A DNA stretch of 41,663 nucleotides from Betaproteobacteria bacterium (lineage in GTDB: Bacteria > Pseudomonadota > Gammaproteobacteria > Burkholderiales > SG8-41), in the NCBI GenBank assembly GCA_947486575.1, contig CANKUB010000028.1:1-41663 (forward strand). The letters are read 5' to 3'. A program made the position numbers and the translations under genes. The notes under the pieces are model-generated. The model saw nothing but the letters and a program-made list of their open reading frames with translations, ran no database searches and had not been told where the DNA came from. Shown here piece by piece: positions 25,622-41,325 of this stretch (the stretch's first letter is position 1; each line of letters begins with the position of its first letter).

Positions 25622-28600
25622 ATGATGCGAAATAGTAAACTTTCCAACGGTGCTCAGAAGCGACGCCATCATCATTCCCACGCGCTACGTGATTCGCGCG
25701 AACTGCGCTCCGTTCAATCCACGCAATACAAAGCCGCAGCCCTGGCCGTAGCCGCGTGCTTCAGCGCCAGCGTGCTCAACCCGGCCCACGCCGGCCCGAC
25801 CAACCCGGTCGTCGTTAACGGCGCCGCTCAGTTCACCACCGTCGGCAACCTGCTGAGCATCACCAACACCCCCAACGCCATCATCAACTGGGGCAGCTTC
25901 TCCATCGGCGCGAATGAGATTACCCGATTCATTCAGCAATCCGCATCCAGTGCCGTGCTCAATCGCGTGGTCGGGCAAAACCCCTCATCAATACTTGGCG
26001 CACTGCAATCCAATGGCCGCGTATTCCTGATTAACCCGAATGGCATCGTGTTTGGTGCAGGCAGCCAGATCAACGTCGGTGGCCTCGTAGCCAGCACCCT
26101 GAACCTGAGCAACGAAGACTTTCTGGCAGGCCGCATGCGCTTTACGGGAGGCTCACTGGCGAATACTGGAAAAAGTGTTATAAATCAAGGGGATATAACA
26201 ACTTCCAGTGGTGGCAACGTCTACCTCATCGGCAATGCCGTCACCAACAACGGCATCATCACCAGCCCCAAGGGCGAAGTCATTCTTGCGGCGGGGACTA
26301 GCGTAGAACTGGTCAACCCCGGCACACCGGATTTACGAGTAGAAATCGTTGCCCCCGATAACCAGGCAATCAACCTCGGCAGCATCGTTGCCGAGAGCGG
26401 CAGAATCGGCATCTACGCCGGGCTGATCAACCAGGCCAACACCCTCAACGCCAATAGCGTCGTGGTGGGCGAGAACGGGCGCATCACCTTAAAAGCCACT
26501 AAAAACATCGACTTAGGTAAGGACAGCATCACCACAGCCAACGGCCCCAACGGCGGCAAGATCGAAATCCAGTCAGGCGATACCACGCTGGTGTCAGGTG
26601 TGGTTGAAGCGAAAGGACAGCAGCTATCCCTGCCGTTTGGCGGCGAGGCTGAAGCTACCGGCAAGGGCGGCGAAATCAAGCTGCTCGGCAATCTGGTGGG
26701 TCTGGATGGCAAGGCAGCGATTGATGCCAGCGGCGAAAACGGCGGCGGCACGGTGCTGGTGGGCGGCGATTTTCAGGGCAAAAACGCCAATGTGCAGAAT
26801 GCCTTCCGTACGTTTGTAGGTTCCGATGTAAACATCAAGGCCGATGCGATCACCAGCGGTAATGGGGGTAAAGTTATTGTGTGGTCTGATGACTACACCG
26901 TTTTCGGCGGTACGCTGTCGGCTCAAGGCGGAGCGTTGTCGGGTAACGGCGGATTTGCCGAGGTTTCAGGTCATGCCTCACTGACATTCAGTCCCAAGGC
27001 AGTGCGGCTTGATGCGTTCAATGGCGATCTGGGAACGCTGTTGCTGGATCCGTTAAACATTATTGTGGCAACAGGCGGCGGTGCTGCCATCGGCAACGTC
27101 AGCACGTTCGCAGCGAATGCTGGCACCACACAAACCATCGATCCGCTAACGCTTAATGCCGTTGCTGCAACCGTGAACTTGCAGGCGACCAATGACATTA
27201 CCGTTAACAGCGCAATCAATCTCACCACAGCTGCTGCGGGCTTGGTTGCGAAAGCCGGTAACAACATCACGATTAATGCTGGCGTAACAACCAATAACGG
27301 GGTTATTACGCTTAGCGCGCGCGACCCTGGAACTACGCCGACCGTCGGTGGAATCGTGAACATTCTTGCGCCCTTGAATTCAACCGGTGGTGCGATCACC
27401 ATCACCAACAATAACGGCACTTCGGCAGGTACTGTGGGGGCCAATATCAATGCCGGTACAGGTAGTGTGGCGATTAACACGGCGAACACGACCAATGTCA
27501 GCGCCAGTGTGAGTGGCGGCGCTATTACGGCTGGCACGGTCAATTTTGTGGCGGCATCGACTGAAACGGTCACTGGCACGTCTTTCACTGCGTCCGCTAT
27601 CAATGCGGTTGCTGGCAGCAATGTCACGCTGAGCGCACCAACAACAGTTGGCAGTTTTGCGGTCAACAGCGCCACATTAACGTTGAACAGCAATCTGAAT
27701 GCCACGAATACCTCCAGTCTGTCCGGCACAGGTTCAATCCTCGGCGCGGGCAATCTGGACATTAACTCTGGCGGCTTGGCAGCGCAGTTCAACTGGAACG
27801 GCGGCACGCTGGGCGGCACCGGCACGCTCACCACATCCACCAATATCACGCCCAGCCTGGGCGGCGGCGCCGTAACGCTGGGGCGTAACTGGACGATGAA
27901 TAGCGCGTCGGCCATCATGTCCGGCGGCCCATTGACCATAAATGCGGGTTCGACCTGGTTCATTCCCGTGGGCAGCTCGTTCACCTTGAACAGTGGCGCA
28001 GCAGCACCGCAAATCGCTGGTGGCGGGACTCTGCAAAACAAGGGCACGATTAACGTTACCGTGGCATCGACCATCGGCGATGGCACCACCCTGTTCGACA
28101 ATCTCGGTGCGGTGAGCACCATCGCCGCGCCGATCACCATCAACGCCAGCAACAGCGGCGGCACCAAAGATACTGGCTCCTACAACATGAATAATACCGG
28201 CGCGGCGCAACTTACGTTTGCCGGTGGCACACGCACCATAGCCAGCACGGGTTCGTTGAATAACGGTGGCCTGAATGCTTCGGTGGTGTTTAGTGGCGGT
28301 AACTTCACGATGGACGCGGGCGCGGCTTACTCCATTAACTTTCTGGGTACGACGATCAATGGCGCTACCGTAACGTTCGACAATGTCATCTTTTTTAATA
28401 ACCTGCTGAATTTAAGCAGCGGCATACTTCAAGGAGCCGGGAATTTGGTAGGGAACGCCGGGCTTGCATGGTCGGGCGGTACCTTGCAAGGTAGCGGGCA
28501 GTTAGTTACGGGAGGTGGCGTAGCGAGTACCGTCAATCCTGCTGGCACCGTAACGCTGGGCCGCCCTTTGAATGCTAACCGGGGTATTAACCTTACCAGT

Positions 28601-31600
28601 GGGAATATCAATATTAATAATGATGGTGTTACCAGCTTTGGCGCGCTCACGTTAGGTGATACTGGTACGGGTAATTCGTTGTTTTCAACCACGAGCAGCT
28701 CACCGGTAACTGGTACGGGCATCCTGAAGGTCAATAGCCTTCACTCGTTAGGAATTATTGGCCCTGCGCTTTCTGATTACACCGTCACGAATTTTTCCAA
28801 TAAAGGGACAGTGATCGTCAATAGTGGCACCGTGCGCCTGGTTGGCACGGGTACCGATGCTGATACAGGCGATTACGTTAACAATGGGGTGAATCTGGTC
28901 TTTGGCGCAGGCACGCGATCTATCGCCGGTAACATCAGCGGTAGTGGTGGCGTTACGTTCAATGGTGCAGTGATGACGTTGACAGGCGCCTACACGCCTG
29001 CTGGTACAACAACGGTCTCTACGGCGCTAAACCCCGCGAGCAGCGTAACGTTTAACCAGGTCGGCGGTGTAAACATTACGAACCTGCAGATGCAGGGGGG
29101 CGTCATTGATGGCACAGCCAATCTGACGGTTCCCACGCTCAACTGGACTGGCGGTTCAATCAACACTACGGGCGCTGGCACGTTAAGCACCAGTACTTCA
29201 GCAACCGTGGGCGGGGCGGTCAATCTGGGCCGAAACTGGACCATGAACAGCAACTCAACGATTGCTGCTGGTGGAGTGGTGACCATTGCAGACAACAAAA
29301 CGCTCACTATTGGCGTAAGTCAAACATTAACCCTTGCGGCCAACGCCGCTGCCACAACGCCGTTTGTGGGGTCCGGTTCAGCCACTACCGGTGTGGTGCA
29401 AGTAAGCGGATCAGCCGTACTGGACGAATTGCGCACTGGCGACGTAACGATGTCCACGGTTAATTTCCAAAATGGCGGCACGGTTAACAGCACGTCAGGC
29501 AACTTGATTTTGGGTGGCAATACTTCCGAGGGAGGCACCTACGCGCTGGGCGGTTCCACGCCGGGCACGGGCGGCACGGTTTCGATCGTTACAGATACGC
29601 GCACGGGGTCTTCTACCCAGGTAACGGGTTTCGGCACCGTGCAAACCAACGGCGGCAACTGGTTCTTTGGCAATATGGGGCCGGGTAATATCTCGGCAGG
29701 ATCACGGCTAAAGGCCAACAGCGGCACGATCACCATTAACGACACGGGCGTCGGCGGCACGTCCACGGTAGACACCATCGAGGTTCACGCTGGCGGCACA
29801 ATAACCAGCACCAGTGGCGTGGGCATGAGCCTGTTGACGAACAACCTGATCTGGGACGGCGGCACGATTTCAGCCACAGGCACAGCCACGCTGGCCACAC
29901 AAACCAACCCTGCGGCGTTGAGCGGTTCGAATACCATGACGCTGGGCCGCAGCTGGACGGCGAACTCGGGTATCAATTACACCAGCACGTCCAATCTGAA
30001 TATTTTGGCTGGCAAGACATTGACCAACGCGGTAGGCAGCACGATGGATATCGCATCTTCAGTAGTGCTCGGCGGAAGCGGCACCTTGGCTAATAACGGA
30101 ACGCTGATTAGGTCAACAGCCGGACCCGCAACCATTGGAACTATTTTTGACAATACCGGTACCGTCAATATAAACGCCGGTACGCTGTTTGTCGGAAATG
30201 GCACGGAAACAGGTAATTACAATGTGGCGGCCGGCGCCCAGCTGGGCCGTTTTGGCGGCACGCGCACGTTTACCGCCGGTGGTATTAGCGGCGCTGGCGA
30301 TGTGGCGTTTAGCGGTGCCGCTCAAGTAACCACCTTTGCGCCAGGTGTAACGTATGCCCCGACTGGGCAAACGTTCATGTCGTTCGGCACGACGACCTAT
30401 AACAATACACCTGCATTTGCCACCTATACTCAGTCGGGCGGCGTCACCAATCTCAATGCTGGCGCTACCGCTACTTCGTTCAGCCTGAACGCACCGGGCG
30501 GCACGTTGAATCTGGGTGGCGGCACGCTGACCACAGGTGCGTTTACCCTGAATGCAGGTACGGTCGCCGGTACGGGGGCGATCGCATCGACAGGCGCACT
30601 TATCTGGGGCGGTGGCACTTTCGACAATACCAATATTCCGCTGTCGGTGACCGGCGCCACGACCGTCAATATTGGTGCCGCTCCGGTCACGCTTAACAAC
30701 GCCGGCAACGACTTCACCGGCACGGTGACAGTGACCAATAGCGGCGCCTTCAACGTGGATATTAGTGACATCAATACGTTGAAGCTGGGCGTAACCACCG
30801 TCGGCAATAATCTGAACGTTACCGCACCGGCAGGTATCACCCTCAGCAAAAACGTCACCTCGGGCGGCTCGCAGACCTATAACAACCCAGTGACGCTGAG
30901 TGCAAGTATTACTACCACCGGCGTTGGCACAACCTTCGTCAGCACCATCAACGGTGCCAAATCGCTTACGGTGAATGACGTCGCGGTCACAACTTTTGGC
31001 GGCATCGTGGGCGCGATCACTCCACTTACCAGTTTGACCACCAACGCGCTTGGAACGACCGTGATCAACGGCGGCGCGATCAGCACCACCGGAGCGCAAA
31101 CCTACAACGACTCGGTCACAATCGGTAATAATACTGTGCTCAGCGGCGCTGGCGTCACCTTCGCCAATACCGTAAATGGCGCCAAGACCCTGCTGGTCAA
31201 CGACAGCGGCGCCACGGTATTCGGCGCGCTGGTGGGCGGCACAACGCCACTCGCGAGCCTGACCACGGACGCGGCAGGAACTTCAAGTTCCGTAGGGGCA
31301 ATTGCCAGCGGAGCAATCACCTTCAACGACAACACCACGTTGTCCAGCTTTTACGGCGGTAGTTCCTTTTTCGCGGGCGGCACAACGACATTGGCTGGAG
31401 GCACTACCGTAAGTCCCGCCGGTGGTGGCGCAGCTACCTTCAACGGCGCTGTCAACGGTGCGCAGAGCCTGACCGTCAACACCACCGGCGCGACCACCTT
31501 TAGCAGTGCCGTGGGTGGCATTACCCCGTTGACGTTCCTGCTAACGGACGCAGGCGGCACCTCAAGCTCCGTCGGCGTCACAACCACGGCATTGACCACG

Positions 31601-34600
31601 TTCAACGACAACACGACGCTGAACGGTACCTACAACAACGCGGGCTTCACCGCTGGTGGAACCGCCACACTCGCTGGTACGGTGACCACCATCAACGGCG
31701 GCGGGGGTAACGTTACCTTCAGCGGCTTCATCGACGGCACTCTGGCCGGCGCTCAAAGTCTTGACGTTAACAGCACGGGTGCCAGCCATTTTCTTTCGGG
31801 CATAGGTGGCGGCAAGGCGCTGGCGAGCTTGAACACAGATGCCGGAGGCACATCCAAGTCCTTTGGGGCGACCACCACCGGCGTCACCCGGTTCCTGGAA
31901 AATACAACATTATCAGGCACTTACAGCAATGCCGGATTGACGGCTGGCGGCACCACCACCCTGGCCGGCACGGCCACCACCGTCAATGCCGGTGCTGGGG
32001 CCATCATCTTTACCAGTACGGTGGATGGCACGGCCGCGGGTATTCAAAGCCTCACGTCCAACAGCAATGGCGCCACCACTTTTGGCGGCGTCGTCGGCGG
32101 CACTACCGCGCTATCGACACTCACCACCAACGCTGGCGGTACCCTGACGCTGACCGGCGTATCCACCACCGGTTTACAGACCTACGGCGAAACCACTGCC
32201 GTCAGTTTGGCTGGTGCCTTCAATACCAATGGCACACCCTTCGTCATAAACGCCCCCACGACCCTGCTTGGCGACACTACCGTCAACTCGGGCGCCGGGA
32301 ATGTCACCTTCAACAACTTTATAGACGCCACGGCAGCCGGCGCGCAAAGCCTCACGGTGAACAGCAGCGGCGCCACCAACTTCGTTGCTGGCATAGGCGG
32401 CGGCAAAGCCCTAGCGAACCTCACCACTGACGCGGGCGGCACCTCAAGCTCGGTGGGCGCGACCACTACCGGTACCACCACCTTTAACGACAACACCACG
32501 TTAAATGGTACCTACGCCAACGCTGGCTTCATTGCGGGTGGCAACGTCACACTGGCGGGCGCCACTACCACAGTCAATGCTGGCGCAGGCAACATCACCT
32601 TTACTGGCTTCATCGACGGCACAGCGGCGGGCGTGCAAAGTCTGGTTGCCAATAGCAGTGGTGCCACCAACTTCAACTCGGGTGTGGGCGGCGGCAAGGC
32701 TTTGTTTAGTTTGACCACCGACGCGGCGGGCAACTCAACGTCTGCTGGCATAACCACCACCGGCGCGACCATAATCAACGACACCACCACCCTGAGCGGC
32801 ACCTACTCCAACTCAGGCTTCACCGCAGGCGGCGCGGCAACTTTGGCCGGCGCGACAACGATCAACGCGGGCGGAAGCGCGATCGCCTTCGCGGGCACCG
32901 TAAACGGCGCCAACCCACTGACCGCCAACAGCACTGGCGCTACGACCTTCAGCGGCATCGTGGGTGGAGCTACGCCATTGGCGAGCCTGACCACCAACGC
33001 AGGCGGCACCTCAAGCTCCGTCGGCGTTACGACCACCGGCGCGACCACCTTCAACGACAACGCCACGCTGAACGGCACCTACAACAACACCGGCTTCACT
33101 GCAGGCGGCACCACCACGCTGGCAGGCACGGTGACCACCATTAACGCCGGAGCAGGCAACATCTCATTCAATAGCTTCATCGATGGCACTGCGGCAGGCG
33201 TGCAAACCCTTACCGCTAACAGCAGCGGGGCGACCAACTTCCTTGCTGGCATAGGTGGCGGCAAGGCCCTGCTGGGCCTAAACACCGACGCAGGTGGTAC
33301 AACTGCCATAGCAGCTGGCGCGGTCAATACCACAGGGGCCATAACACTCAACGATGTAGTGAATGGCGCCAACGTCACTTTTAACGCAGGCGCTGGTGCA
33401 ATCACCGCAACCAATCCCGCCAATGATTTCAGCGGCGTTACCACTTTAACCGGCAGCACAATACAAGTTGTTGATTTTAATGCGCTTACTGCGGTGCTGA
33501 ACGCTACCGGTGCATCTAGCCTCACAGCGGGTGGTAATCTTGTCGTGTCGGGCGTTACGGTAGGGCTGACGACTACCACTGTAGGCACCGGCACCACCAA
33601 CTTCGGCATAACCACAGTAGCAGGCAACCTCGCCAGCACCAGCGCGGGCGCAGTCACACAAAGTGGCGCGCTGATTGTAGGCGGCACCACCAACATCAAC
33701 GCCGGGGCCAACCCGATCACCCTGACCAACGCGGGCAACGACTTTACCGGCGCTGCTACGTTTACCGGTGGTATAGTGCAAGTAACTGATTCTAATGCAC
33801 TTTCCGCCATACTCGCAGCGAGCGGCGCAAGCACCCTTAGCGCAGGTGGCAACCTCAGTATCGCGGGCAGCACAGCCGCATTGACCACCACCAGCGGTGG
33901 CGCAGTCAGCCAAACCGGCGCATTAATCGTAACCGGCAACACCAACATCAACGCCGGTGCCAACGCGATTACATTGAACAATACAGGCAACGACTTCCAG
34001 GGCCCCCTGTCATTGACCAACAGCGGCGCAAACAACATCGCCATCACCGATGCCAACGCCTTAATCCTTGGCGCATGGAACATAGGCACCGGCACACTCG
34101 ATGTAACCACCAACGGCGCCATTACCCAATCAGGCACCATCACACAGGCAGCCGGTGCAGGCCCTGCAACCATCGACGCCGGCAGTGGCACCATCACCCT
34201 GAACGCCTCGAACAACGACTTCACCGGCCCATTGAGACTGAATGGCGGCGTAACCCAGATCACCGACAAAAACGCCCTGACGCTGAGCACACTGAACACC
34301 GGCGCACTGACCGTAACCTCTACCGGCGCACTAAATCTTGGACAAGGCGCAGTAGGTGGCGCACTCACCGCCAAGAGCAACAACAACGCCATAACCCAGA
34401 GCGGCGCACTAACCGTAGCGGGCACATCCGACATCAATGCCGGCAGCAACACCATCACCCTGAACAACGCCAGCAATGACTTCACAGGCGCATTGAGCGC
34501 CAGTGGCGGAACCGTTCAGATAACCGACATGAATACCCTGCTACTCGGCTCACTGAACGCAACAACACTGACACTGGCATCGGTCAACACCAACCTGCAG

Positions 34601-35389
34601 GGCACATTAAGCACCCTCAGCAACTTCAACCTGCCCAGCGGCATATTCACCATCAATCCCGGCGGCGCACTCACCACAGGTGCTGCCAGCATAGCGGCGG
34701 GCGCCACACTGGCGACAGGCGGCTCATTCACCGCCACCGGGCCAATAACCGTCGGCGGCATACTGCAAGGCTCACCCACTGGGCCGATCACAGCCACAGG
34801 GCAGACCGTCACCGTAACCTCGGGCGGCCTGCTAAACCTGAACGGTGGATCGATCACCGCCACCACCCTTGCCAATCAAGGCTTGCTCAAAGGCATAGGC
34901 ACCATCAACGCCAACGTAAACAACGACGGCACGATGTCGCCGGGGGCGTCACCTGGGCTGATGAATATTGCGGGTAATTTCGTGCAGGGGCCTACGGGGT
35001 TGCTGAATATCGAGATCGGTGGAGTTATACCGGGCACGGGCTTTGATAAAGTAGCTGTTACCGGCAATGCGACATTGAACGGTGTGCTGGCGATAGCCCA
35101 GTTTGGGAATTTCGTGCCAGCATCGACGGATGGATTCCGCTTCCTGACGACGGGTGGCACGATCAACGGCACGTTCTCTACAATTCTGGTGCCCGCTGCT
35201 TTTGCGGGCATGAGTTTTAGCTACCAGTCTCAGTTTACCGATGCGCTGGCGTCTGCGCAGATTTCTTCTGCGCCGCAGTCTTCAACGAACATGTTGATAG
35301 CAGCAACGCAGCCCATCGTAATTTACGAAGAGAAAGAAGCCTTTACCGAAGAGCAGAAGAAGGCTATTTTGGATCAAACGTGCAAGTAA
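25622..35389 (+). CDS. Giant two-partner secretion exoprotein (TpsA), filamentous haemagglutinin-like adhesin
   Basis: 3255 residues. An extended signal peptide of about 57 residues has a long basic, His-rich n-region (RRHHHSH) and cleavage near AHA-G. The TPS (haemagglutination activity) domain follows at about residues 57-300, with its NPNG motif at 138-141. The rest is Gly/Thr/Asn/Ala-rich repetitive beta-helix sequence in at least three repeat classes (listed separately). A module typical of beta-helix exoproteins (MSPGASPGLMNIAGNF) lies near the end. There is no C-terminal barrel, so export needs the TpsB partner encoded downstream. The only cysteines I see are in the signal peptide and at the second-last residue. 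The tail is charged (YEEKEAFTEEQKK). An AGGAG site precedes the ATG; a second ATG follows directly. Likely role: surface adhesion, aggregation or biofilm. Confidence 0.93.
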   Translation: MMRNSKLSNGAQKRRHHHSHALRDSRELRSVQSTQYKAAALAVAACFSASVLNPAHAGPTNPVVVNGAAQFTTVGNLLSITNTPNAIINWGSFSIGANEITRFIQQSASSAVLNRVVGQNPSSILGALQSNGRVFLINPNGIVFGAGSQINVGGLVASTLNLSNEDFLAGRMRFTGGSLANTGKSVINQGDITTSSGGNVYLIGNAVTNNGIITSPKGEVILAAGTSVELVNPGTPDLRVEIVAPDNQAINLGSIVAESGRIGIYAGLINQANTLNANSVVVGENGRITLKATKNIDLGKDSITTANGPNGGKIEIQSGDTTLVSGVVEAKGQQLSLPFGGEAEATGKGGEIKLLGNLVGLDGKAAIDASGENGGGTVLVGGDFQGKNANVQNAFRTFVGSDVNIKADAITSGNGGKVIVWSDDYTVFGGTLSAQGGALSGNGGFAEVSGHASLTFSPKAVRLDAFNGDLGTLLLDPLNIIVATGGGAAIGNVSTFAANAGTTQTIDPLTLNAVAATVNLQATNDITVNSAINLTTAAAGLVAKAGNNITINAGVTTNNGVITLSARDPGTTPTVGGIVNILAPLNSTGGAITITNNNGTSAGTVGANINAGTGSVAINTANTTNVSASVSGGAITAGTVNFVAASTETVTGTSFTASAINAVAGSNVTLSAPTTVGSFAVNSATLTLNSNLNATNTSSLSGTGSILGAGNLDINSGGLAAQFNWNGGTLGGTGTLTTSTNITPSLGGGAVTLGRNWTMNSASAIMSGGPLTINAGSTWFIPVGSSFTLNSGAAAPQIAGGGTLQNKGTINVTVASTIGDGTTLFDNLGAVSTIAAPITINASNSGGTKDTGSYNMNNTGAAQLTFAGGTRTIASTGSLNNGGLNASVVFSGGNFTMDAGAAYSINFLGTTINGATVTFDNVIFFNNLLNLSSGILQGAGNLVGNAGLAWSGGTLQGSGQLVTGGGVASTVNPAGTVTLGRPLNANRGINLTSGNININNDGVTSFGALTLGDTGTGNSLFSTTSSSPVTGTGILKVNSLHSLGIIGPALSDYTVTNFSNKGTVIVNSGTVRLVGTGTDADTGDYVNNGVNLVFGAGTRSIAGNISGSGGVTFNGAVMTLTGAYTPAGTTTVSTALNPASSVTFNQVGGVNITNLQMQGGVIDGTANLTVPTLNWTGGSINTTGAGTLSTSTSATVGGAVNLGRNWTMNSNSTIAAGGVVTIADNKTLTIGVSQTLTLAANAAATTPFVGSGSATTGVVQVSGSAVLDELRTGDVTMSTVNFQNGGTVNSTSGNLILGGNTSEGGTYALGGSTPGTGGTVSIVTDTRTGSSTQVTGFGTVQTNGGNWFFGNMGPGNISAGSRLKANSGTITINDTGVGGTSTVDTIEVHAGGTITSTSGVGMSLLTNNLIWDGGTISATGTATLATQTNPAALSGSNTMTLGRSWTANSGINYTSTSNLNILAGKTLTNAVGSTMDIASSVVLGGSGTLANNGTLIRSTAGPATIGTIFDNTGTVNINAGTLFVGNGTETGNYNVAAGAQLGRFGGTRTFTAGGISGAGDVAFSGAAQVTTFAPGVTYAPTGQTFMSFGTTTYNNTPAFATYTQSGGVTNLNAGATATSFSLNAPGGTLNLGGGTLTTGAFTLNAGTVAGTGAIASTGALIWGGGTFDNTNIPLSVTGATTVNIGAAPVTLNNAGNDFTGTVTVTNSGAFNVDISDINTLKLGVTTVGNNLNVTAPAGITLSKNVTSGGSQTYNNPVTLSASITTTGVGTTFVSTINGAKSLTVNDVAVTTFGGIVGAITPLTSLTTNALGTTVINGGAISTTGAQTYNDSVTIGNNTVLSGAGVTFANTVNGAKTLLVNDSGATVFGALVGGTTPLASLTTDAAGTSSSVGAIASGAITFNDNTTLSSFYGGSSFFAGGTTTLAGGTTVSPAGGGAATFNGAVNGAQSLTVNTTGATTFSSAVGGITPLTFLLTDAGGTSSSVGVTTTALTTFNDNTTLNGTYNNAGFTAGGTATLAGTVTTINGGGGNVTFSGFIDGTLAGAQSLDVNSTGASHFLSGIGGGKALASLNTDAGGTSKSFGATTTGVTRFLENTTLSGTYSNAGLTAGGTTTLAGTATTVNAGAGAIIFTSTVDGTAAGIQSLTSNSNGATTFGGVVGGTTALSTLTTNAGGTLTLTGVSTTGLQTYGETTAVSLAGAFNTNGTPFVINAPTTLLGDTTVNSGAGNVTFNNFIDATAAGAQSLTVNSSGATNFVAGIGGGKALANLTTDAGGTSSSVGATTTGTTTFNDNTTLNGTYANAGFIAGGNVTLAGATTTVNAGAGNITFTGFIDGTAAGVQSLVANSSGATNFNSGVGGGKALFSLTTDAAGNSTSAGITTTGATIINDTTTLSGTYSNSGFTAGGAATLAGATTINAGGSAIAFAGTVNGANPLTANSTGATTFSGIVGGATPLASLTTNAGGTSSSVGVTTTGATTFNDNATLNGTYNNTGFTAGGTTTLAGTVTTINAGAGNISFNSFIDGTAAGVQTLTANSSGATNFLAGIGGGKALLGLNTDAGGTTAIAAGAVNTTGAITLNDVVNGANVTFNAGAGAITATNPANDFSGVTTLTGSTIQVVDFNALTAVLNATGASSLTAGGNLVVSGVTVGLTTTTVGTGTTNFGITTVAGNLASTSAGAVTQSGALIVGGTTNINAGANPITLTNAGNDFTGAATFTGGIVQVTDSNALSAILAASGASTLSAGGNLSIAGSTAALTTTSGGAVSQTGALIVTGNTNINAGANAITLNNTGNDFQGPLSLTNSGANNIAITDANALILGAWNIGTGTLDVTTNGAITQSGTITQAAGAGPATIDAGSGTITLNASNNDFTGPLRLNGGVTQITDKNALTLSTLNTGALTVTSTGALNLGQGAVGGALTAKSNNNAITQSGALTVAGTSDINAGSNTITLNNASNDFTGALSASGGTVQITDMNTLLLGSLNATTLTLASVNTNLQGTLSTLSNFNLPSGIFTINPGGALTTGAASIAAGATLATGGSFTATGPITVGGILQGSPTGPITATGQTVTVTSGGLLNLNGGSITATTLANQGLLKGIGTINANVNNDGTMSPGASPGLMNIAGNFVQGPTGLLNIEIGGVIPGTGFDKVAVTGNATLNGVLAIAQFGNFVPASTDGFRFLTTGGTINGTFSTILVPAAFAGMSFSYQSQFTDALASAQISSAPQSSTNMLIAATQPIVIYEEKEAFTEEQKKAILDQTCK
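27788..30620 (+). repeat. TpsA repeat class 1: five modules of about 225-250 codons
   Basis: A W.GGT-type motif (NWNGG, AWSGG, NWTGG, IWDGG, IWGGG) recurs at TpsA residues 723, 948, 1173, 1409 and 1660, so the period is 225, 225, 236 and 251 residues. In the first four copies it is followed after about 25 residues by an LGR.W-like segment (LGRNWTMNS, LGRPLNANR, LGRNWTMNS, LGRSWTANS). The first two spacings are identical, which suggests recent duplication. Confidence 0.8.
31340..33340 (+). repeat. TpsA repeat class 2: seven modules of about 96 codons
   Basis: An L(N/S)GTY.N.GFTAGG motif, or a degenerate form, recurs at residues 1907, 2000, 2097, 2196, 2294, 2391 and 2483, giving spacings of 93, 97, 99, 98, 97 and 92. 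Each unit also carries TTLAG, an N(A/G)G.G..(T/S)F block, a GG..AL..L block and a SSVG.TTTG segment. Several copies are near-identical at the DNA level, so unequal recombination could change copy number. The first and fourth copies are the most degenerate. Confidence 0.85.
33422..34580 (+). repeat. TpsA repeat class 3: five modules of about 75-105 codons
   Basis: An NDF(T/S/Q)G motif recurs at residues 2601, 2706, 2790, 2865 and 2952, and once earlier at 1696. It is followed by a VQ(V/I)TD.N(A/T)L segment and preceded in most copies by a TNINAG(A/S)N.ITL segment. Spacing is 105, 84, 75 and 87 residues. The unit is distinct from class 2, which ends just before it. Confidence 0.75.
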
Positions 35390-35392
35390 CTC

Positions 35393-35422
35393 ATACAACA
35401 GGCAGCGCAGTGTCTGTTGTAT
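35393..35422 (+). terminator. Hairpin between tpsA and tpsB (terminator or attenuator)
   Basis: A 12-bp stem with a 6-base loop: the left arm ATACAACAGGCA pairs with TGTCTGTTGTAT with a single G-T wobble. It begins 3 bp after the tpsA stop and is followed by a short T run (35422-35425). The weak T tract means it could terminate only part of the transcripts, giving less TpsB than TpsA, or it could protect the tpsA mRNA end. Confidence 0.6.
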
Positions 35423-35503
35423 TTTGGGATTGAGCAGTAACCCATGAGTGTGCGGTGAGGTTTAAAAAGTTTTTAAAAACTAATAACTTACGATATATTT
35501 CTC

Positions 35504-37171
35504 ATGGTCTACTTGATAGTTTGGCGTGGCGTGCAACAAAAAAATATAAATAAAAACAACAGGTTATGTAAAGCCCGGCTTTGCCTCAGCGCTTTGTCGC
35601 TTTCGGTAACGTTGGCGTACGCCCAGCAGCCCACCGCACAGAGTAATTTGACTGGTGCATCACAAAGCGCGTCCGGCCCTGTATTTGATATTAAACGCTA
35701 TGAATTGACGGGTAACACGCTGCTGACTACCGAGCGTATTCAGGCACTTATTGCGCCGCACGTAGGCGCGCAACGCTCGTTGGCCGACGTGCAGCGCGCA
35801 CAAGCAGCGGTTGAAGACGGATATCGTAGCCTGGGCTACGGCACGGTTCAGGTAACTTTGCCAGAACAAGACATCACATCGGGCGTTATTCAGTTTCGCG
35901 TATTGCAGCCCAAAGTGGGTAAGGTTGTGCTCGATGGCAATCTTAATTTCGACAGTACTAACGTTCGGGCAAGCCTTCCTACCATACGAGAAGGGCAGAT
36001 TCCCAATTCACACGATATTGCACGGAATCTTCAAATAACCGGCGAGCATCCCGTTAAAAAAACCACCGTGCTGTTGCGCACCTCGGATAACCCTGAGATT
36101 GTTGACGTGAACGTCAAGGTTGAGGACGACCGGCCCTGGCGGTTTGTGTTTACCCTCGATAACACTGGCAATAGCGATACGGGCTACTTGAGATCGGGCA
36201 TCGGCCTTCAGCACACCAATTTATTTAATCGCGATCATACGGGGTCGTTTCAATACGTTACGTCACCGTCAAATCCGAGCAAAGTGAACATTTTTGGTTT
36301 GGGCTACCACATTCCGCTCTACGGCCTGAATAGTTCCATCGATATTGTCGGTGGCTATTCAAACGTGAATTCTGGTGTGGTGCAGGGCCTGTTCAATGTG
36401 GCGGGTAGTGGCACAATTTTTGGCGCAAAGTGGAATTATGTCCTGCCCAAATTTGCCAGCATAGATCATAAACTTTCGCTGGGTATGGACTACCGTGCGT
36501 TTCACAACAACGTTACCTTGGCCGGCGTGGGGTTGGTGCCCGATATCACTATTCGTCCCGTAACGCTGGGGTATAGCGGAAACTATCGCGGCGCGTCGTC
36601 TGATATCAGTTTCAATATGAGCGTTTCGGCGAATGTTCCCGGCGGCAACGACGGCGGCTCGGCTGATTTTGCGCGCTCACGGGCCAGTGCAACGGATCAC
36701 TACCTTATCTATCGCGCTGGCGTAAGTTATCAAACCACATTTGCGAAAGACTGGCAGGCTCGTGCATCGGTTACCGGGCAATATACGCGTGATGCCTTGG
36801 TTTCTGGTGAGCAATTTGGTTTGGGTGGCCCTGATAGCTTGCGTGGTTTCCTGGTGCGCGAACTCAATAATGATAGAGGTGTAGGCAGCCAAGTTGAGTT
36901 GTATACCCCCGAACTTGCACCCAAAATTGGCCTCCCGGACAAATTTCGCATACGTCTGATCGGCTTCTACGAGAATGGGCAAGTGTGGCGCAATAAAGCG
37001 CTGCCAGGCGAAGTTACGAATAAGTTCGTAGCGGATGCCGGCTTGGGAATGCGGCTGAACTACGGTAAGGCTTTAAGCCTGCGCTTCGATGTGGCCAACA
37101 TACTTAATCCTGTTGGAACACGCCAACGCGGTGAAAACCGCATCGCCGCAGGCATGGCGCTAGTGTTTTAA
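35504..37171 (+). CDS. Two-partner secretion outer-membrane transporter TpsB (ShlB/FhaC/HecB family)
   Basis: A 555-residue Omp85-superfamily transporter that would export the TpsA protein encoded upstream. A signal peptide ends near AYA-Q (residue 40). POTRA domains follow at roughly 61-135 (beginning [14 protein letters not shown]) and 136-208. The 16-stranded barrel carries the conserved LRGF motif at 446-449 (VRGF in the family), needed for secretion, in an RELNND context. The chain ends with a terminal Phe (MALVF), the outer-membrane assembly signal. The ATG at 35504 lacks a clear ribosome-binding site and the n-region is long, so a GTG at codon 10 is possible. It lies 114 bp after tpsA, behind the hairpin and an AT-rich stretch that could hold its own promoter. 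Confidence 0.93.
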
Positions 37172-37221: not shown

Positions 37222-37298
<77 letters not shown>

Positions 37299-37324
37299 TA
37301 AAATCAATGACTTAGCGAGTTTTA

Positions 37325-37388: not shown

Positions 37389-38570
37389 TCACACTGCTTT
37401 CTTCGCCGAGACCCTGGGCAGCGGAATCACTTCATCCGGTTTGCGGCCGTAGACGCGGCGGGTAGTGCGCGGCTCTACGTGGTCCCCACGCTTCATCGCA
37501 TTTTCCAGATCCGGACTATCGGACAAGGCCTTGGCTTTGATGTCGTGAAAGTGGATGGCGTGCGCATCCTTGAATCCGGCCGCTTGCCTGGCGCGTTGCC
37601 ACATGCTGTTAAATGCCGTTTCCGAGATAGGTTTTCCCAATCGGGTGAGAAACAGCAGAGCACTGTCGAGGTCGGCAACTTCCTTATGGGCGCCACGCAC
37701 CTTATTGCGAACTTCCATCGTCGAGGCAATCACATCCCGAAGATCATCCGTCCATGGTACAAGTTTGCGCCGGGCGCGAGATCCAGCACGCCGCTTGTTC
37801 GGGGTGAACCAAACTCCCGCGTCAGTGATGTCCGCCAGCGTAAGACGTAGAATCATACCGCGCCGTGCCCCGGTCATTTGCGCGATGTCCATCATGCACT
37901 GGAGAACTGGTCCCGCCTTCGCATAGATGTCCTTAAACATCTGATCGGTGACATACAGATCTCGCGGGGCTTCCGCGTTGTATTCAATCTGCAAGCACGG
38001 GTTGTACTCTGTGTAACCCCACAGCGTTTTTGCGAGGCGGAAGATCCGCGATAGGCACTGAATTTCCTTGTTCGACGCGACGGGACGTCCGTTAGCGATC
38101 AGAGTTTTATTTTCCCCTACAGTGCGAAACACCTGGCGCACAGCCTCCGCGCGCAAGTATTGCGTAATGTCCAGCGAACGAAGGAAGGGACCTGCCGACG
38201 CCTCAGCCTCACTCTTAGCGTATCGGCGGGTTCCAAATGCTTCCCGGAGATTCCTGCAGTAGCGCGTGTGTTCAGGTTTTGTTTTCGGATGAAGTGTAGG
38301 CAGGATGTCGCGTTCATACCGCGCAATCAACTCACTGAGAGTCCCGACTGTCGTTTCCTCTTGGGGCACGTTGATCACGAACACCTTGACCCACTGCTTG
38401 CGGGCCTCGGCCTTATCCGCGCCCAAGGCCACACAGTTTTTGTCGGGGAACGCGGTCTTGAATATGCGCCTCATCTCTTCGTTCACAGGACGCATGTAAT
38501 AGCGCCCCTTGACTTGGTAAACGCCAAGCGGGAGGTCCTTCGCTTTTTCTCTGGGTCTGCCCACGAGCAT
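37389..38570 (-). CDS. Tyrosine recombinase (phage/island-type integrase)
   Basis: A 393-residue integrase. The N-terminal arm-binding region has the LP.GVY..KGRYYMRP pattern of phage-type integrases. Then come a core-binding domain and the catalytic domain. Active-site residues visible are Arg236 (MTGARRG), His342 (HDIK), His364 and the nucleophile Tyr374 (TRRVYGRKP). The His-to-Tyr spacing of 10 is normal. The residue three after His342 is Lys345, where the usual box II has Arg, which is unusual. It reads toward the tRNA. Its ATG overlaps the stop of the upstream zinc-ribbon gene (TAATG), so the two are coupled. It would catalyse integration into and excision from the tRNA-Pro gene. Confidence 0.92.
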   Translation of the reverse strand: MLVGRPREKAKDLPLGVYQVKGRYYMRPVNEEMRRIFKTAFPDKNCVALGADKAEARKQWVKVFVINVPQEETTVGTLSELIARYERDILPTLHPKTKPEHTRYCRNLREAFGTRRYAKSEAEASAGPFLRSLDITQYLRAEAVRQVFRTVGENKTLIANGRPVASNKEIQCLSRIFRLAKTLWGYTEYNPCLQIEYNAEAPRDLYVTDQMFKDIYAKAGPVLQCMMDIAQMTGARRGMILRLTLADITDAGVWFTPNKRRAGSRARRKLVPWTDDLRDVIASTMEVRNKVRGAHKEVADLDSALLFLTRLGKPISETAFNSMWQRARQAAGFKDAHAIHFHDIKAKALSDSPDLENAMKRGDHVEPRTTRRVYGRKPDEVIPLPRVSAKKAV

Positions 38571-38776: not shown

Positions 38777-39093
38777 GCTCGTCTCAGGCTCGCCGAGGTT
38801 CGTCCACACACACCGGTTGCTGCTCAGCGTGAAAAAGTAGGGGTTGCGTAAGGATTCGTGCACGCGAGTTTTCGTGTTGCGATCCCATTCATTCGCCTTT
38901 CAATTGCGTGTAACTCTGTAACGTTCGTCAATGTTTACTGCTCAATACTTTGGTCGGTGCCGCGTTGCCGCTTCGTCTGAGCGGCTTACCAAGTTTCTTC
39001 ATCTTGCCTTGTCTCGAATGATAGAGGTGCTTGTAACCCTCACAAAAATAGGGGGGGTTGGGGGAAAAAAGGCCCCATTCACCCCCGCGTCGA
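38777..39093. other. Gene-free stretch between the zinc-ribbon gene and the flhC-like gene
   Basis: 317 bp with no convincing gene. The right end carries G-, A- and C-homopolymer runs that form the hairpin listed at 39044-39086. The rest should contain the promoter of the zinc-ribbon/integrase operon; I could not place -35/-10 boxes with confidence. If the FlhDC-like pair is an activator, its binding site for this operon would be expected here. Confidence 0.4.
39044..39086 (-). terminator. Probable terminator after the flhC-like gene
   Basis: On the minus strand, 7 bases past the flhC-like stop, GGGGGT...GGGG pairs with CCCC...ACCCCC around a T-rich loop and is followed by TATTTTT. The stem is interrupted but G/C-only in its arms, so a Rho-independent terminator for the flhD/flhC-like operon is likely. 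The homopolymers could alternatively be part of an activator site. Confidence 0.45.
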
Positions 39094-39711
39094 CTAAAAA
39101 TCCCGATTAGGCTTCATGCCTTGGCCTGAAAGGCGCTGCAGATTTGCATTCATGGTGCACGCTGGACATACCTGCGAATCCAGTGGCTTGCTGAGCGTGG
39201 TGGGGAATTTGAGCAAGCATGCGGGACATCGTCTGAGCTTCACTGCCGCCCCTGGCGTTTGCGTGAGGAAGGCAGTATGGGCGAGCAGGGCATACGCTTG
39301 ATTGATGTCCAGCCGCTTGGTCGCTGTTGCCTCAGTGAGTTTTTGCGTGATGCTTAAATATGCCTTGAATGCGGCGAGCAGCCGCCATCCTCGGTGCAGG
39401 GGTGTCTTGGTAATCAGCTGCATACGCTCATAGCATTCCAGAAATATGCCGCATTGAAGGGCCCACGCCGCCGAAGTATGGTTGGTGCGCAGGGCAAAGT
39501 AATCGGCCCGTCCCTGCATCAGCGGCCCCGCAGGTGGTACCACGCCACGCAGCGCCTTGTATAGTTCATGGATACGGCGATGGGGCAGGTGCGTATGCCG
39601 TTCAATCAGCTTTGCCTTGGCGCCGGCCAGGACCATGCCGTGGGCCAATTCCAGATAGGCGATAGACCACCGTGGATCGCGCGGATCTGCATCCTCCGGG
39701 AGCGGCGTCAC
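39094..39711 (-). CDS. FlhC-like transcriptional activator (mobile-element type)
   Basis: A 205-residue protein resembling FlhC. The N-terminal half carries a LELAHGMVLAGAKAKL..RHTHLPHRRIHELYKALRG pattern that matches FlhC's conserved helix pair, followed by VPPAGPL (PPKGMLP in flagellar FlhC). Four cysteines near the C-terminus (162, 165, 182, 185) in CPAC...CPAC reproduce the FlhC zinc site. The start is GTG, overlapping the flhD-like stop as GTGA, so the subunits are co-translated. Flagellar FlhC works as FlhD4C2. Element-borne relatives (SetC of SXT/R391, AcaC of IncA/C plasmids, SgaC of SGI1) activate transfer genes. No flagellar gene is near, and the pair lies behind an integrase, so an element activator is the better reading. 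Confidence 0.78.
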   Translation of the reverse strand: MTPLPEDADPRDPRWSIAYLELAHGMVLAGAKAKLIERHTHLPHRRIHELYKALRGVVPPAGPLMQGRADYFALRTNHTSAAWALQCGIFLECYERMQLITKTPLHRGWRLLAAFKAYLSITQKLTEATATKRLDINQAYALLAHTAFLTQTPGAAVKLRRCPACLLKFPTTLSKPLDSQVCPACTMNANLQRLSGQGMKPNRDF

Positions 39712-40184
39712 GCCCGTCCACTGGATTTTGTGGAGGTGCGTGTCATGATCAACGCAGTCGCGTGGTGCTGGCCGGCGAGTGATTGCATGCCTGCACCCCT
39801 GCTAAACGCGGTGGTGGAAAAGCGCACGATGGGTCCTCTCAGGGTCAACGCCAGCAGCGCGATATCCTCGTCGGACAGCTTGCCGAGCCATTCAACCAGC
39901 TCCATCGTAATACCTAGTCGAATCAGCATTTCCGGATTGCCTGCGCTGACGTCCATGGCGGCCAGGCGCGCAATAGTCAAAAACCGGCGATTGAGCTCCA
40001 TCACATGCAAGGCGTTGTCGCGGGCCTGCCTCGCGGATTGCAGGGTAATTGCAAGGTCGTTGGCATCGTAGGCAATCTGGCCCAGACAGGCCGTTGCATA
40101 TTCGAGATACGCCTGCTGATCCGCGTTGAGGGGCCCCAGCCAGTGCTCGGCAATGCAGCGATTCAGTGCTGTGAAGTCATCCAT
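39708..40184 (-). CDS. FlhD-like transcriptional activator partner (mobile-element type)
   Basis: 158 residues from the ATG at 40184; an in-frame ATG at 40277 would add 31 residues, and neither start has a good ribosome-binding site. The FlhD-like part lies at about residues 57-128: ELNRRFLTIARLAAMD, then RLGITMELVEWLGKLS, then a VRFS segment. These match the LN..YLLLA.RL...D, RLGI..E...L..L and FRF blocks of FlhD. A preceding helical stretch of about 55 residues and a Ser/Thr-rich basic tail are not part of classical FlhD. It overlaps the flhC-like gene by four bases. Its promoter should be in the AT-rich region shared with the divergent repressor gene. Confidence 0.72.
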   Translation of the reverse strand: MDDFTALNRCIAEHWLGPLNADQQAYLEYATACLGQIAYDANDLAITLQSARQARDNALHVMELNRRFLTIARLAAMDVSAGNPEMLIRLGITMELVEWLGKLSDEDIALLALTLRGPIVRFSTTAFSRGAGMQSLAGQHHATALIMTRTSTKSSGRA

Positions 40185-40381
40185 GTGGCAACTGACTATG
40201 CGTTGGATTGATTCGCTTGTTTGCCACAAGTCGCATCGCGGTTGGGTGCCAGATTGATGGCGCAGGCTGGCAGCCATCCACAGGCGTCGTTTGTGCCCGC
40301 AGGGTATGAAATCGACCCAAAGCCTGCGGTGGTTGCCTGTGAAGACATACAGATTATAGAGATCGATTAAGAAATAATGTA

Positions 40382-40472
40382 TATACTTATATTAATTATC
40401 TATACTTATGTAAATACAGTCAACAAAAAAGTGCCATACAATTATGTAAAATGTCTAAAAAATAGATATAAT
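40382..40472. promoter_or_regulatory. AT-rich divergent promoter/operator region with short repeats
   Basis: Between the flhD-like gene and the divergent repressor lies a strikingly AT-rich stretch. TATACTTAT occurs at 40382-40390 and 40401-40409 (19 bases apart, about two helical turns), and TTATGTAAA at 40406-40414 and 40442-40450. A consensus -10 box TATAAT for the plus strand is at 40467-40472. The spacing and position fit operators for a CI-type repressor controlling both promoters. Confidence 0.5.
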
Positions 40473-40539
40473 CGCTATATGTTTACTTTCAGACCGGTTG
40501 CCCATGAATTGGGCCTCACCGGTCGCTCAAGGTGACGAT

Positions 40540-41325
40540 ATGGCTGCCGCGCAAAGAAAGCCGGTAATTCACGAAGAGATCCCTGCTGACCCCGGCAGAA
40601 AACCTCGCACTGACCCGCAGCGCCTGAAAGCATTTGCTCAGCAACTCAACGTAATGCTGGGTGAACTGGGCTTGCCAGAGCGCGGGCGTGCGCGCGTGAT
40701 CAAGGACCGCGTTGGCGTGAGCGGTGCAACTGCCGCGAACTGGCTGCGCGGGGACAGCTATCCCAGCTTCGAAGAACTGGGCCGGATCGGGCGCCTGGGC
40801 GTGGATCCCTTGCGCCTGCTATCCAAGGAAACGGATATCGCGCCATCTGCCGCCAAATCCAGCGTAGCTACCTCGGCGGATTCCAAGCGGCTGGCTAAAC
40901 TCATCGAATCCAAACAGCTAACGCCATTGATAAGTCTGCATTCCAGCGATGGCGAATGGGATCATACGGCGCTGCCCAATCGCGTCTGGCAGCAACTGCT
41001 CGGCCATGACGTCAGTGGGTTCGTGCTGCTGTTCATGAAGGGCGAGGCGATGGGGGATCGGATCAAGGATGGCACGCCGCTGCTGATTGACACAAACGCC
41101 ACGCAGATCACTGAAGATAACGGACTTTACGCGCTTCTGCTCGGGGAGTCGGTCATGGTGCGTCGCGTGCAGCGGCGGTTGCAGGGTGGTTATCTTATTA
41201 CCAGTGACAATCCCTCGATCGCTCCTGAAACCATTAGTCAACTGGGATCGCACCTAGATGCATCGGCGAAAGCCGGTGAAGTTTTGGTGCTGGGGCGCGT
41301 TGCAATGGCGATACTGAAGCTATAG
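40540..41325 (+). CDS. CI/LexA-type repressor with a degenerate (non-peptidase) S24 domain
   Basis: 261 residues. An N-terminal helix-turn-helix domain (about 25-95) has VSGATAANWLRGDSYP as the recognition region. A linker follows, then a C-terminal LexA/CI-like fold (about 140-261) with KDGTPLLID and LYALLLGES blocks. The catalytic serine of the G-(D/E)-S-M motif is Ala170 (GEAM), and the lysine expected in VK(R) is Arg208 (VRR), so autocleavage should be impossible. The ATG at 40540 has an AAGGTG site 5 bases upstream; in-frame ATG 40504 and TTG 40498 are less likely. It is divergent from the FlhD/FlhC-like operon, as setR is from its operon in SXT. It is probably the element's main repressor. 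Confidence 0.85.
   Translation: MAAAQRKPVIHEEIPADPGRKPRTDPQRLKAFAQQLNVMLGELGLPERGRARVIKDRVGVSGATAANWLRGDSYPSFEELGRIGRLGVDPLRLLSKETDIAPSAAKSSVATSADSKRLAKLIESKQLTPLISLHSSDGEWDHTALPNRVWQQLLGHDVSGFVLLFMKGEAMGDRIKDGTPLLIDTNATQITEDNGLYALLLGESVMVRRVQRRLQGGYLITSDNPSIAPETISQLGSHLDASAKAGEVLVLGRVAMAILKL

Follow-up and report, generated by a model that had tools for sequence, protein, structure and literature searches.

A coupled FlhD-like/FlhC-like gene pair opposite a CI-type repressor without the S24 catalytic pair: a candidate excision switch of a tRNA-Pro-associated island in a betaproteobacterium

Control of conjugation by FlhDC-type activators is known from enterobacterial and Vibrio elements and, as BisDC, from ICEclc. 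In the integrative and conjugative elements (ICEs) of the SXT/R391 family, SetCD activates int, xis and the transfer genes, while setCD is repressed by SetR, whose autoproteolysis lifts the repression (PMC4344509, PMC4207636); the SetCD boxes overlap or adjoin the -35 element (PMC4344509). In the IncA/C plasmids, which are reported to have no setR homologue, the sites bound by AcaCD lie upstream of xis and contain a GCCCAAAATGGGC core, and SGI1, a mobilised island, encodes an FlhDC of its own (PMC4207636, PMC4605294, PMC5058578). SGI1 resides at the 3' end of trmE (PMC8409611), and the AcaCD site lies 61-98 bp before its xis (PMC5058578). Plasmid Rts1 has SetC/SetD, with an FlhC-domain activator and a 174-amino acid (aa) partner, and a repressor that is not homologous to SetR (PMC10838148). 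FlhC homologues precede traI in GGI-like type IV secretion systems (PMC4207684), and the BisDC regulator in the control cascade of ICEclc combines an FlhC-like (DUF2857) subunit with the ParB protein BisD (PMC7423338). Here, we describe a locus of this kind in a Betaproteobacteria bacterium. It lies at the right end of the window, i.e. the whole 41,663-bp stretch that was analysed, which is the entire contig C28 of the draft genome G000 (5.35 Mb, 282 contigs). An earlier note on this DNA had placed an FlhD-like/FlhC-like gene pair, divergent from a CI-type repressor, behind an integrase at tRNA-Pro, and this arrangement is present. In order from the tRNA, the genes are as follows.

37222..37298, plus strand: tRNA-Pro (ggg), the integration site (ARAGORN)
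37389..38570, minus strand: tyrosine recombinase (integrase), 393 aa; PF00589 52 bits (cut-off 27), E 1e-13; PHROG integrase 113 bits
38570..38863, minus strand: zinc-ribbon protein, 97 aa; PF22811 50 bits (cut-off 27); Ogr/Delta-like 18.5 bits, under cut-off
39094..39711, minus strand: FlhC-like activator subunit, 205 aa; PF05280, four C-terminal Cys kept
39708..40184, minus strand: FlhD-like activator subunit, 158 aa; identified by a 7-row profile and an AlphaFold2 (AF2) model
40540..41325, plus strand: CI-type repressor with helix-turn-helix (HTH) and S24 domains; likely start ATG 40540, alternative start TTG 40498

The integrase gene ends 90 bases from the tRNA-Pro, and the contig stops 338 bases past the repressor end. 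The portion of the island inside the window amounts to 4.4 kb only.

What these parts are, and that they recur as a mobile module, is firmly established. The FlhC-like protein matches PF05280 with 43 bits (cut-off 27; E 4e-11) and the NCBIfam FlhC model with 48 bits (E 1e-12; under that model's equivalog cut-off of 216). Its profile finds FlhC in the PDB (8j56 and 2avu, E 1e-7), and hhalign against E. coli FlhC gives a probability of 96. The four C-terminal Cys, which in FlhC bind Zn, are invariant across the seven FlhC rows. The FlhD-like protein, for which there is no Pfam match and no PHROG match, is identified as FlhD by a profile match and by structure, its AF2 model having FlhD in each of the ten top places among PDB matches. 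In the search with the 7-row profile, FlhD ranks first in the PDB (8j56_A, E 0.0018), and hhalign against E. coli FlhD gives E 1e-4 and a probability of 57. For the model, with a predicted local distance difference test score (pLDDT) of 84.5, the ten top PDB matches are all FlhD chains with probabilities of 0.99-1.00, while the eleventh has 0.08; the Foldseek E-values are 0.019 or worse. Judged from the relatives, its best start is ATG 40184 and not 40277, and it has ~60 additional N-terminal residues. flhD lies directly upstream of flhC and the two genes overlap by 4 nt (39708-39711). In other words, both features of the FlhDC family, i.e. an FlhC domain with four Cys and an FlhD-fold partner encoded directly upstream, are found here, and the lack of any FlhC/FlhD profile match, which the earlier note had named as a refuting outcome, did not arise. 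By analogy to FlhDC, the two proteins would form a heteromeric DNA-binding activator. In a 15-row tree, the 12 mobile-element FlhC rows are separated with a support of 100/100 from the three others, which are E. coli FlhC, the flagellar-type FlhC of G000 itself, encoded by a separate gene on C11 (265 bits), and the G164 row.

The repressor matches PF00717 (38 bits, cut-off 23) and a PHROG repressor family (67 bits). Because hhalign against LexA and CI was too weak, its catalytic residues were compared by pairwise and multiple alignment. In 5/5 element repressors, the position of LexA Ser119 is Ala and that of Lys156 is Arg; LexA and 4/4 aligned phage relatives (eight records were found, four aligned) retain Ser and Lys. 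A PDB search with the repressor sequence alone returned nothing and one with its profile weak HTH and repeat-protein matches only; the viral contigs held no relative of the FlhC or repressor rows. Because Ser and Lys are replaced, SetR-like self-cleavage of the element repressors is unlikely on sequence grounds, and the SetR-like mode of action put forward in the earlier note is not supported. As SetR is released by autoproteolysis (PMC4207636), a different trigger is expected here.

FlhC relatives at E <= 1e-12 are present in 9/399 genomes of the order, with up to seven candidates scored per genome, and in 7/74 of the family; the two sets overlap and both include G000, and G164 and G351 among the nine are distant. 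Among 50,697 phage records, none has an FlhC relative at E 0.01. In the genome contig collection, a scan with a single sequence found nothing and one with an alignment of seven sequences found six loci. The pair stands opposite an S24 repressor in the window, in G005:C141 (G005 belongs to the window's genus), in G045:C31 and G045:C13, and in G019:C28, with flhC of G019 split between contigs C32 and C28. FlhC, FlhD and the repressor recur together in these related genomes at 46-71% identity and with open frames, which is more than expected by chance. That the switch recurs at four loci, spread over three related draft genomes besides that of the window, marks it as a mobile control module. Two further contigs, G000:C192 at tRNA-Cys and G450:C229 at tRNA-Pro, end inside or at flhD. 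Wherever a tRNA is in view, the FlhC loci adjoin tRNA-Pro, -Cys, -Arg or -Ser. A tblastn search with the window integrase at E 1e-3 gave no match in the other loci longer than 4 kb that were compared; in a further set, the integrases of G045:C13, G450, G019 and G007 are related to one another. Thus, the repressor-FlhD-FlhC unit recurs with other integrases in related genomes. The neighbourhood search that the earlier note had proposed thereby recovers the repressor-flhDC unit with a varying integrase, and the note's inference of a betaproteobacterial control module is supported in that the unit recurs in elements of such bacteria.

In a second setting, the pair is opposite ParA, namely in G064, G157 (at tRNA-Ser) and G196, with ParA of G157 and G196 assigned by eye. 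G064 has one copy of the pair on C18 at tRNA-Ser, which is the copy read, and one on C17 at tRNA-Cys. Behind ParA follow, in G064, an ICE_PFGI_1-family ParB (173 bits, cut-off 144) and DUF2857 (62, cut-off 37) and, in G157, a ParB-like protein (by eye), STY4534 (156 bits, narrowly missing its cut-off of 160) and RadC. G009, a member of the window's genus, has the pair, STY4534 (146, under cut-off), ICE_PFL4669 (133, cut-off 111) and DUF2857 (62) on one contig. A third setting is plasmid-borne: tblastn with the window FlhC at E 1e-5 matches 2/72,556 plasmid records, pSTJ1 (36%) and pAZI09 (35%), with no IncC plasmid among them. These two, which exemplify the FlhC homologues of GGI-like systems, are like the window in that they have the nearest plasmid FlhC relatives with an FlhD-like gene in front; they differ in that the pair lies on plasmids before mobH-traD and divergent from a response regulator rather than an S24 repressor.

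The window shares with SetCD/SetR of SXT/R391 the FlhDC-family pair, the repressor and the integrative element (PMC4344509, PMC4207636). By contrast, SetR, as described there, is self-cleaving, whereas the window repressor is without the catalytic pair, and no MOBH or TraH match is found in draft G000. SXT/R391 ICEs integrate in prfC, unlike the window element at tRNA-Pro. AcaCD of IncC and the FlhDC of SGI1 are likewise FlhDC-family pairs, and the AcaCD site is an inverted repeat, as is the box described below; however, the island site differs (tRNA-Pro here, trmE in SGI1). Of the TraN, TraG and TraH genes that SGI1 has of its own, TraH was sought in draft G000 and has no match. The FlhD-like rows have a weak match (E 0.005, probability 7) to a 202-aa pSN254 protein that we assume to be AcaD, judging by its length and by its location as given in PMC4207636; the FlhC profile against the same protein and the FlhD profile against a 90-aa pSN254 protein found nothing. 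The proposal that the window proteins are well diverged from SetCD and AcaCD is supported. Rts1 resembles the window in its FlhC-domain activator with a partner and, by its published description, in a repressor other than a SetR homologue; it differs as a conjugative plasmid. BisDC also differs, as the window pair consists of PF05280 and FlhD-fold proteins and not of ParB and DUF2857. With respect to the ParA-ParB-DUF2857-STY4534 core of ICEclc/PFGI-1-type ICEs, the draft G000 has a repressor in place of ParA opposite flhD, and the element may or may not be of that type. The sister elements of G064 and G009 have DUF2857 genes like ICEclc plus an FlhDC-like pair. On the features tested, the window element falls outside SXT/R391 (repressor type, site) and SGI1 (site), and it may work alike. 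In the literature searched, we met with no report of islands of this kind in which an S24 repressor faces an FlhDC-type pair; on the basis of this limited search, the undescribed element family put forward in the earlier note is plausible.

Two intergenic stretches hold candidate regulatory sites.

40382..40450, no strand assigned: three repeats of TATACTTATGTAAA (starts 40382, 40401 and 40437), candidate repressor operators
40395..40423, minus strand: promoter-like site of the flhD-flhC operon, TTGACT-17-GATAAT, 10/12 consensus match only
39034..39072, minus strand: candidate operator box, inverted repeat AACCC...GGGTT, directly behind flhC and upstream of the zinc-ribbon and int genes
39045-39018, minus strand: promoter-like site at the box, 9/12, with its -35-like hexamer inside the box; number of such sites at chance level

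The three 14-nt repeats surround the single promoter-like site of the 355-bp gap between flhD and the repressor gene, which is oriented to flhD. For each of two stretches, 0/400 dinucleotide shuffles reach these repeats, with a statistic picked post hoc; promoter-like sites number 3 in the scanned stretch and 2.3 in shuffles, i.e. chance level. For the box, the 10-mer GCCAACCCCC is found within one mismatch in 5/5 regions (the window, L005, L030, L031 and L032) and in 0/100 shuffles. Behind flhC in G000:C192, G045:C13 and G019, GCATTTTCTCGCCAACCCC is followed by 8-12 bases, a G-rich arm and ATTA; the strong box is also in G045:C31 and G450, close kin of G045:C13 and G019, and the window, G005 and G157 have weaker forms. 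G000:C192 has 19 bases in common with G045:C13 and likewise with G019 (0/100 shuffles each). An RNA structure at the box was also considered, with z-scores of 0.5, -2.4, 0.1, 0.3 and -2.1 in five loci; because folding is inconsistent, a DNA site is preferred.

The tRNA-Pro supplies a candidate end of the island.

37253..37317, plus strand: candidate att repeat, the 46-bp 3' part of tRNA-Pro (37253-37298) plus TAAAATCAATGACTTAGCG

A second 46-bp copy lies at G000:C96:6530-6575 and has the same tail with one extra A; a search with the full tail finds the window copy alone, and one with the shorter tRNA 3' end finds C96. We infer that C96 may hold the right end of the window's island, C28 and C96 being separate contigs. 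By eye, two of the genes to the left of the C96 copy are amidase-like and one is transposase-like, and a GNAT/DUF1778-like pair is also there.

Based on the gene identities, the loss of the catalytic pair, the recurrence of the unit with other integrases, the repeats and the box, and guided by the layout and by SetCD, AcaCD, SGI1 and Rts1 (PMC4344509, PMC4207636, PMC4605294, PMC5058578, PMC10838148), we suggest the following model. The right end of the window would hold the left end of a genomic island integrated in tRNA-Pro. Together, the FlhD-like and FlhC-like proteins of the coupled genes would act as a heteromeric activator, as do FlhDC, SetCD and AcaCD, and switch on excision, with the inverted-repeat box behind flhC and upstream of the xis-like and int genes as the most likely target. 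The divergent CI-type repressor would bind the three repeats around the flhDC promoter and keep the activator off. Because its S24 domain is without the catalytic Ser and Lys, release would not follow from RecA-triggered self-cleavage; instead, it could depend on an antirepressor, on a ligand, on a protease or on an activator that a related element supplies. An excision switch of an integrative island that is probably not self-transmissible, that works like SetCD or AcaCD and that belongs to neither SXT/R391 nor SGI1 is, on balance, the reading we favour, with moderate confidence.

Several observations weigh against this model. The repeat test covered the window alone, four of the strong-box loci are close kin, and the pairwise common strings of the window and G005 (L031) boxes are no longer than those in shuffles. 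The box ends ~170 bp before the zinc-ribbon gene, farther than the AcaCD site before xis. In the transfer-gene contigs scanned, no site reaches the scores of the six training boxes (19.9-27.2), the best raw scores being 12.8 (G157), 12.0 (G009) and 15.7 and 14.9 (G064); because the window box is in the training set, its own high score arises partly by construction. For the repressor, AF2 gave a poor model (pLDDT 44.6), which was set aside; the loss of the catalytic pair is alignment-based. The window int and zinc-ribbon genes have no match among the relatives examined. An empty site, sought via the right flank of C96 in 14 same-genus genomes including G000, was not recovered; this flank has some match in 14/14, best outside G000 in G011 (98-99% over ~2 kb), and 0/6 fetched flank regions have a tRNA or a tRNA-Pro 3' end. 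Finally, the absence of transfer genes is weak evidence because the window holds just 4.4 kb of the island and because fragmented drafts, as most of the relatives are, often miss mobile DNA.

This last point bears on the possibility that the switch governs a complete ICE with a MOBH relaxase and F-type secretion, whose transfer genes were lost from, or left unassembled in, the draft. PF07514 (MOBH) is found in 2/7 genomes (G064 and G079; none in G000, G005, G009, G019 and G045) and PF06122 (TraH) in 4/11 (G009, G064, G157 and G079; none in G000, G005, G007, G019, G045, G450 and G196). TIGR03744, the PFL_4706-type VirB4, is found in 3/13 (G064, G079 and G196), always under the cut-off (463 bits vs 521 in G196), and not in the window's family; PF12101 is found in 3/10 (G157, G009 and G064). 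DUF3577/STY4534 has no match in G000 as a 282-contig draft. In line with a complete ICE, FlhDC-like pairs that belong to this clade are found next to ICE-core genes in G064, in G157 and, within the window's own genus, in G009, and all three genomes have TraH, on contigs other than that of the pair; pSTJ1 and pAZI09, with the pair directly before mobH-traD, point the same way. Against it stand the four repressor-switch genomes G000, G005, G019 and G045, in which the MOBH, TraH, PFL_4706-type VirB4 and PF12101 profiles find nothing, and the 30.5-kb contig C28 of G019, where no transfer gene was recognised behind the switch (13 proteins were profile-scanned, two of them unmatched, and the remainder read by eye). 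For the conjugation genes that the earlier note suggested looking for, the transfer-gene profiles thus find nothing in these fragmented drafts, and TraH is present in the three genomes with the pair next to ICE-core genes. G196, also of the ParA setting, has no TraH and does have a VirB4-like match. The split is drawn from few genomes, mostly fragmented drafts, and is partly confounded with taxonomy, although G009 is in the window's genus. We regard a complete ICE as unlikely, and the island as probably not self-transmissible.

Alternatively, the locus could be the decayed end of an island with the switch a relic that controls nothing. The loss of the S24 catalytic pair would agree with this, as would G007, which matches the C-terminal part of flhC only, in a 79-aa open frame near an integrase. 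However, the frames of FlhC, FlhD and the repressor are all open, with 46-71% conservation between species, and the Ala/Arg pair is itself kept in 5/5 repressors and so looks like a functional state rather than decay; a relic seems quite improbable. A SetR/SetCD-type switch induced by DNA damage would be built from the same gene types (PMC4344509, PMC4207636), but with the catalytic Ser and Lys gone we give it very little credence. Least credible of all is an ordinary chromosomal flagellar regulator: the family match to FlhC speaks for it, yet a much closer FlhC match lies elsewhere in G000, the unit sits at several different tRNAs, and no flagellar gene was recognised among the open reading frames from 34000 to the contig end, in line with what had been noted earlier.

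Returning to the excision switch, a more far-reaching version of it, which we offer as a tentative and rather doubtful suggestion, is a family of betaproteobacterial satellite islands with defence and metal-resistance cargo. In these, a CI-like repressor that can never be cleaved would hold down the island's own FlhDC-type activator; a related MOBH/F-type ICE would free the islands through its cognate activator and would also carry them, making them an SGI1 counterpart with an added lock. The helper ICE is suggested by G064, G157 and G009. G064:C19 has the F-type set TraG_N, TraH, TraU, TraC, TrbI, TraK and TraD, a MOBH match and DUF3577 at the contig start, and may continue C17 or C18. G064 (C18 and C19) and G009 (C88 and C142) each combine an ICEclc/PFGI-1-type core, with DUF2857 (BisC-like) in it, with transfer genes of the F type and, apart from these, an FlhDC-like pair; possibly, one element of G064 or G009 has two FlhDC-type regulators. 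As for cargo, G019:C28 has a complete-looking Wadjet set JetA-D with a PD-T7-1-like gene (L043:884-10052) and two HipA proteins, and ChrB_N is found in G019; one HipA is common to G045:C31, G045:C13 and G019:C28 at 90-93%. By eye, the genes that follow the repressor in G045 resemble metal-resistance genes (mercuric reductase-like, CadA-like). G045 also has three partial tRNA-Pro 3' copies on C18, C32 and C21 (L057, L058 and L073), with a partial tRNA-Arg on C21, which suggests boundaries of several tandem islands.

The zinc-ribbon gene between integrase and flhC was missing from the gene list of the earlier note. Its position is where some related elements carry a small HTH_17 or AlpA-like (Xis-like) gene (L005, L035 and L062, and L030 under cut-off; two more candidates, in L029 and L031, had no match). 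The protein might be a directionality factor or a regulator, and because the int and zinc-ribbon genes are unmatched in relatives, calling it Xis would be a guess. The window integrase reads HDIK at the motif position where tyrosine recombinases usually have HxxR, and that of G045:C13 reads HDLK. Directly left of the tRNA-Pro (25622-37171), a 3255-aa adhesin-like gene (filamentous haemagglutinin type, by eye) is followed by an FhaC/ShlB-type transporter gene, and the two look like resident two-partner secretion. The contig end (41464-41663) resembles short repeats at six further places in the genome, and a joining contig sought with these last 200 bases returned those six short matches of 77-81%.

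If the model is correct, a compact repressor/activator unit that is combined with varied integrases and tRNA sites in betaproteobacteria would represent a portable control module. Its SOS trigger appears to be disabled, which makes it a testable question what frees a non-self-cleaving S24 repressor. The unit would also give a handle on the movement of defence islands, such as the one with Wadjet in G019, and of metal-resistance islands.

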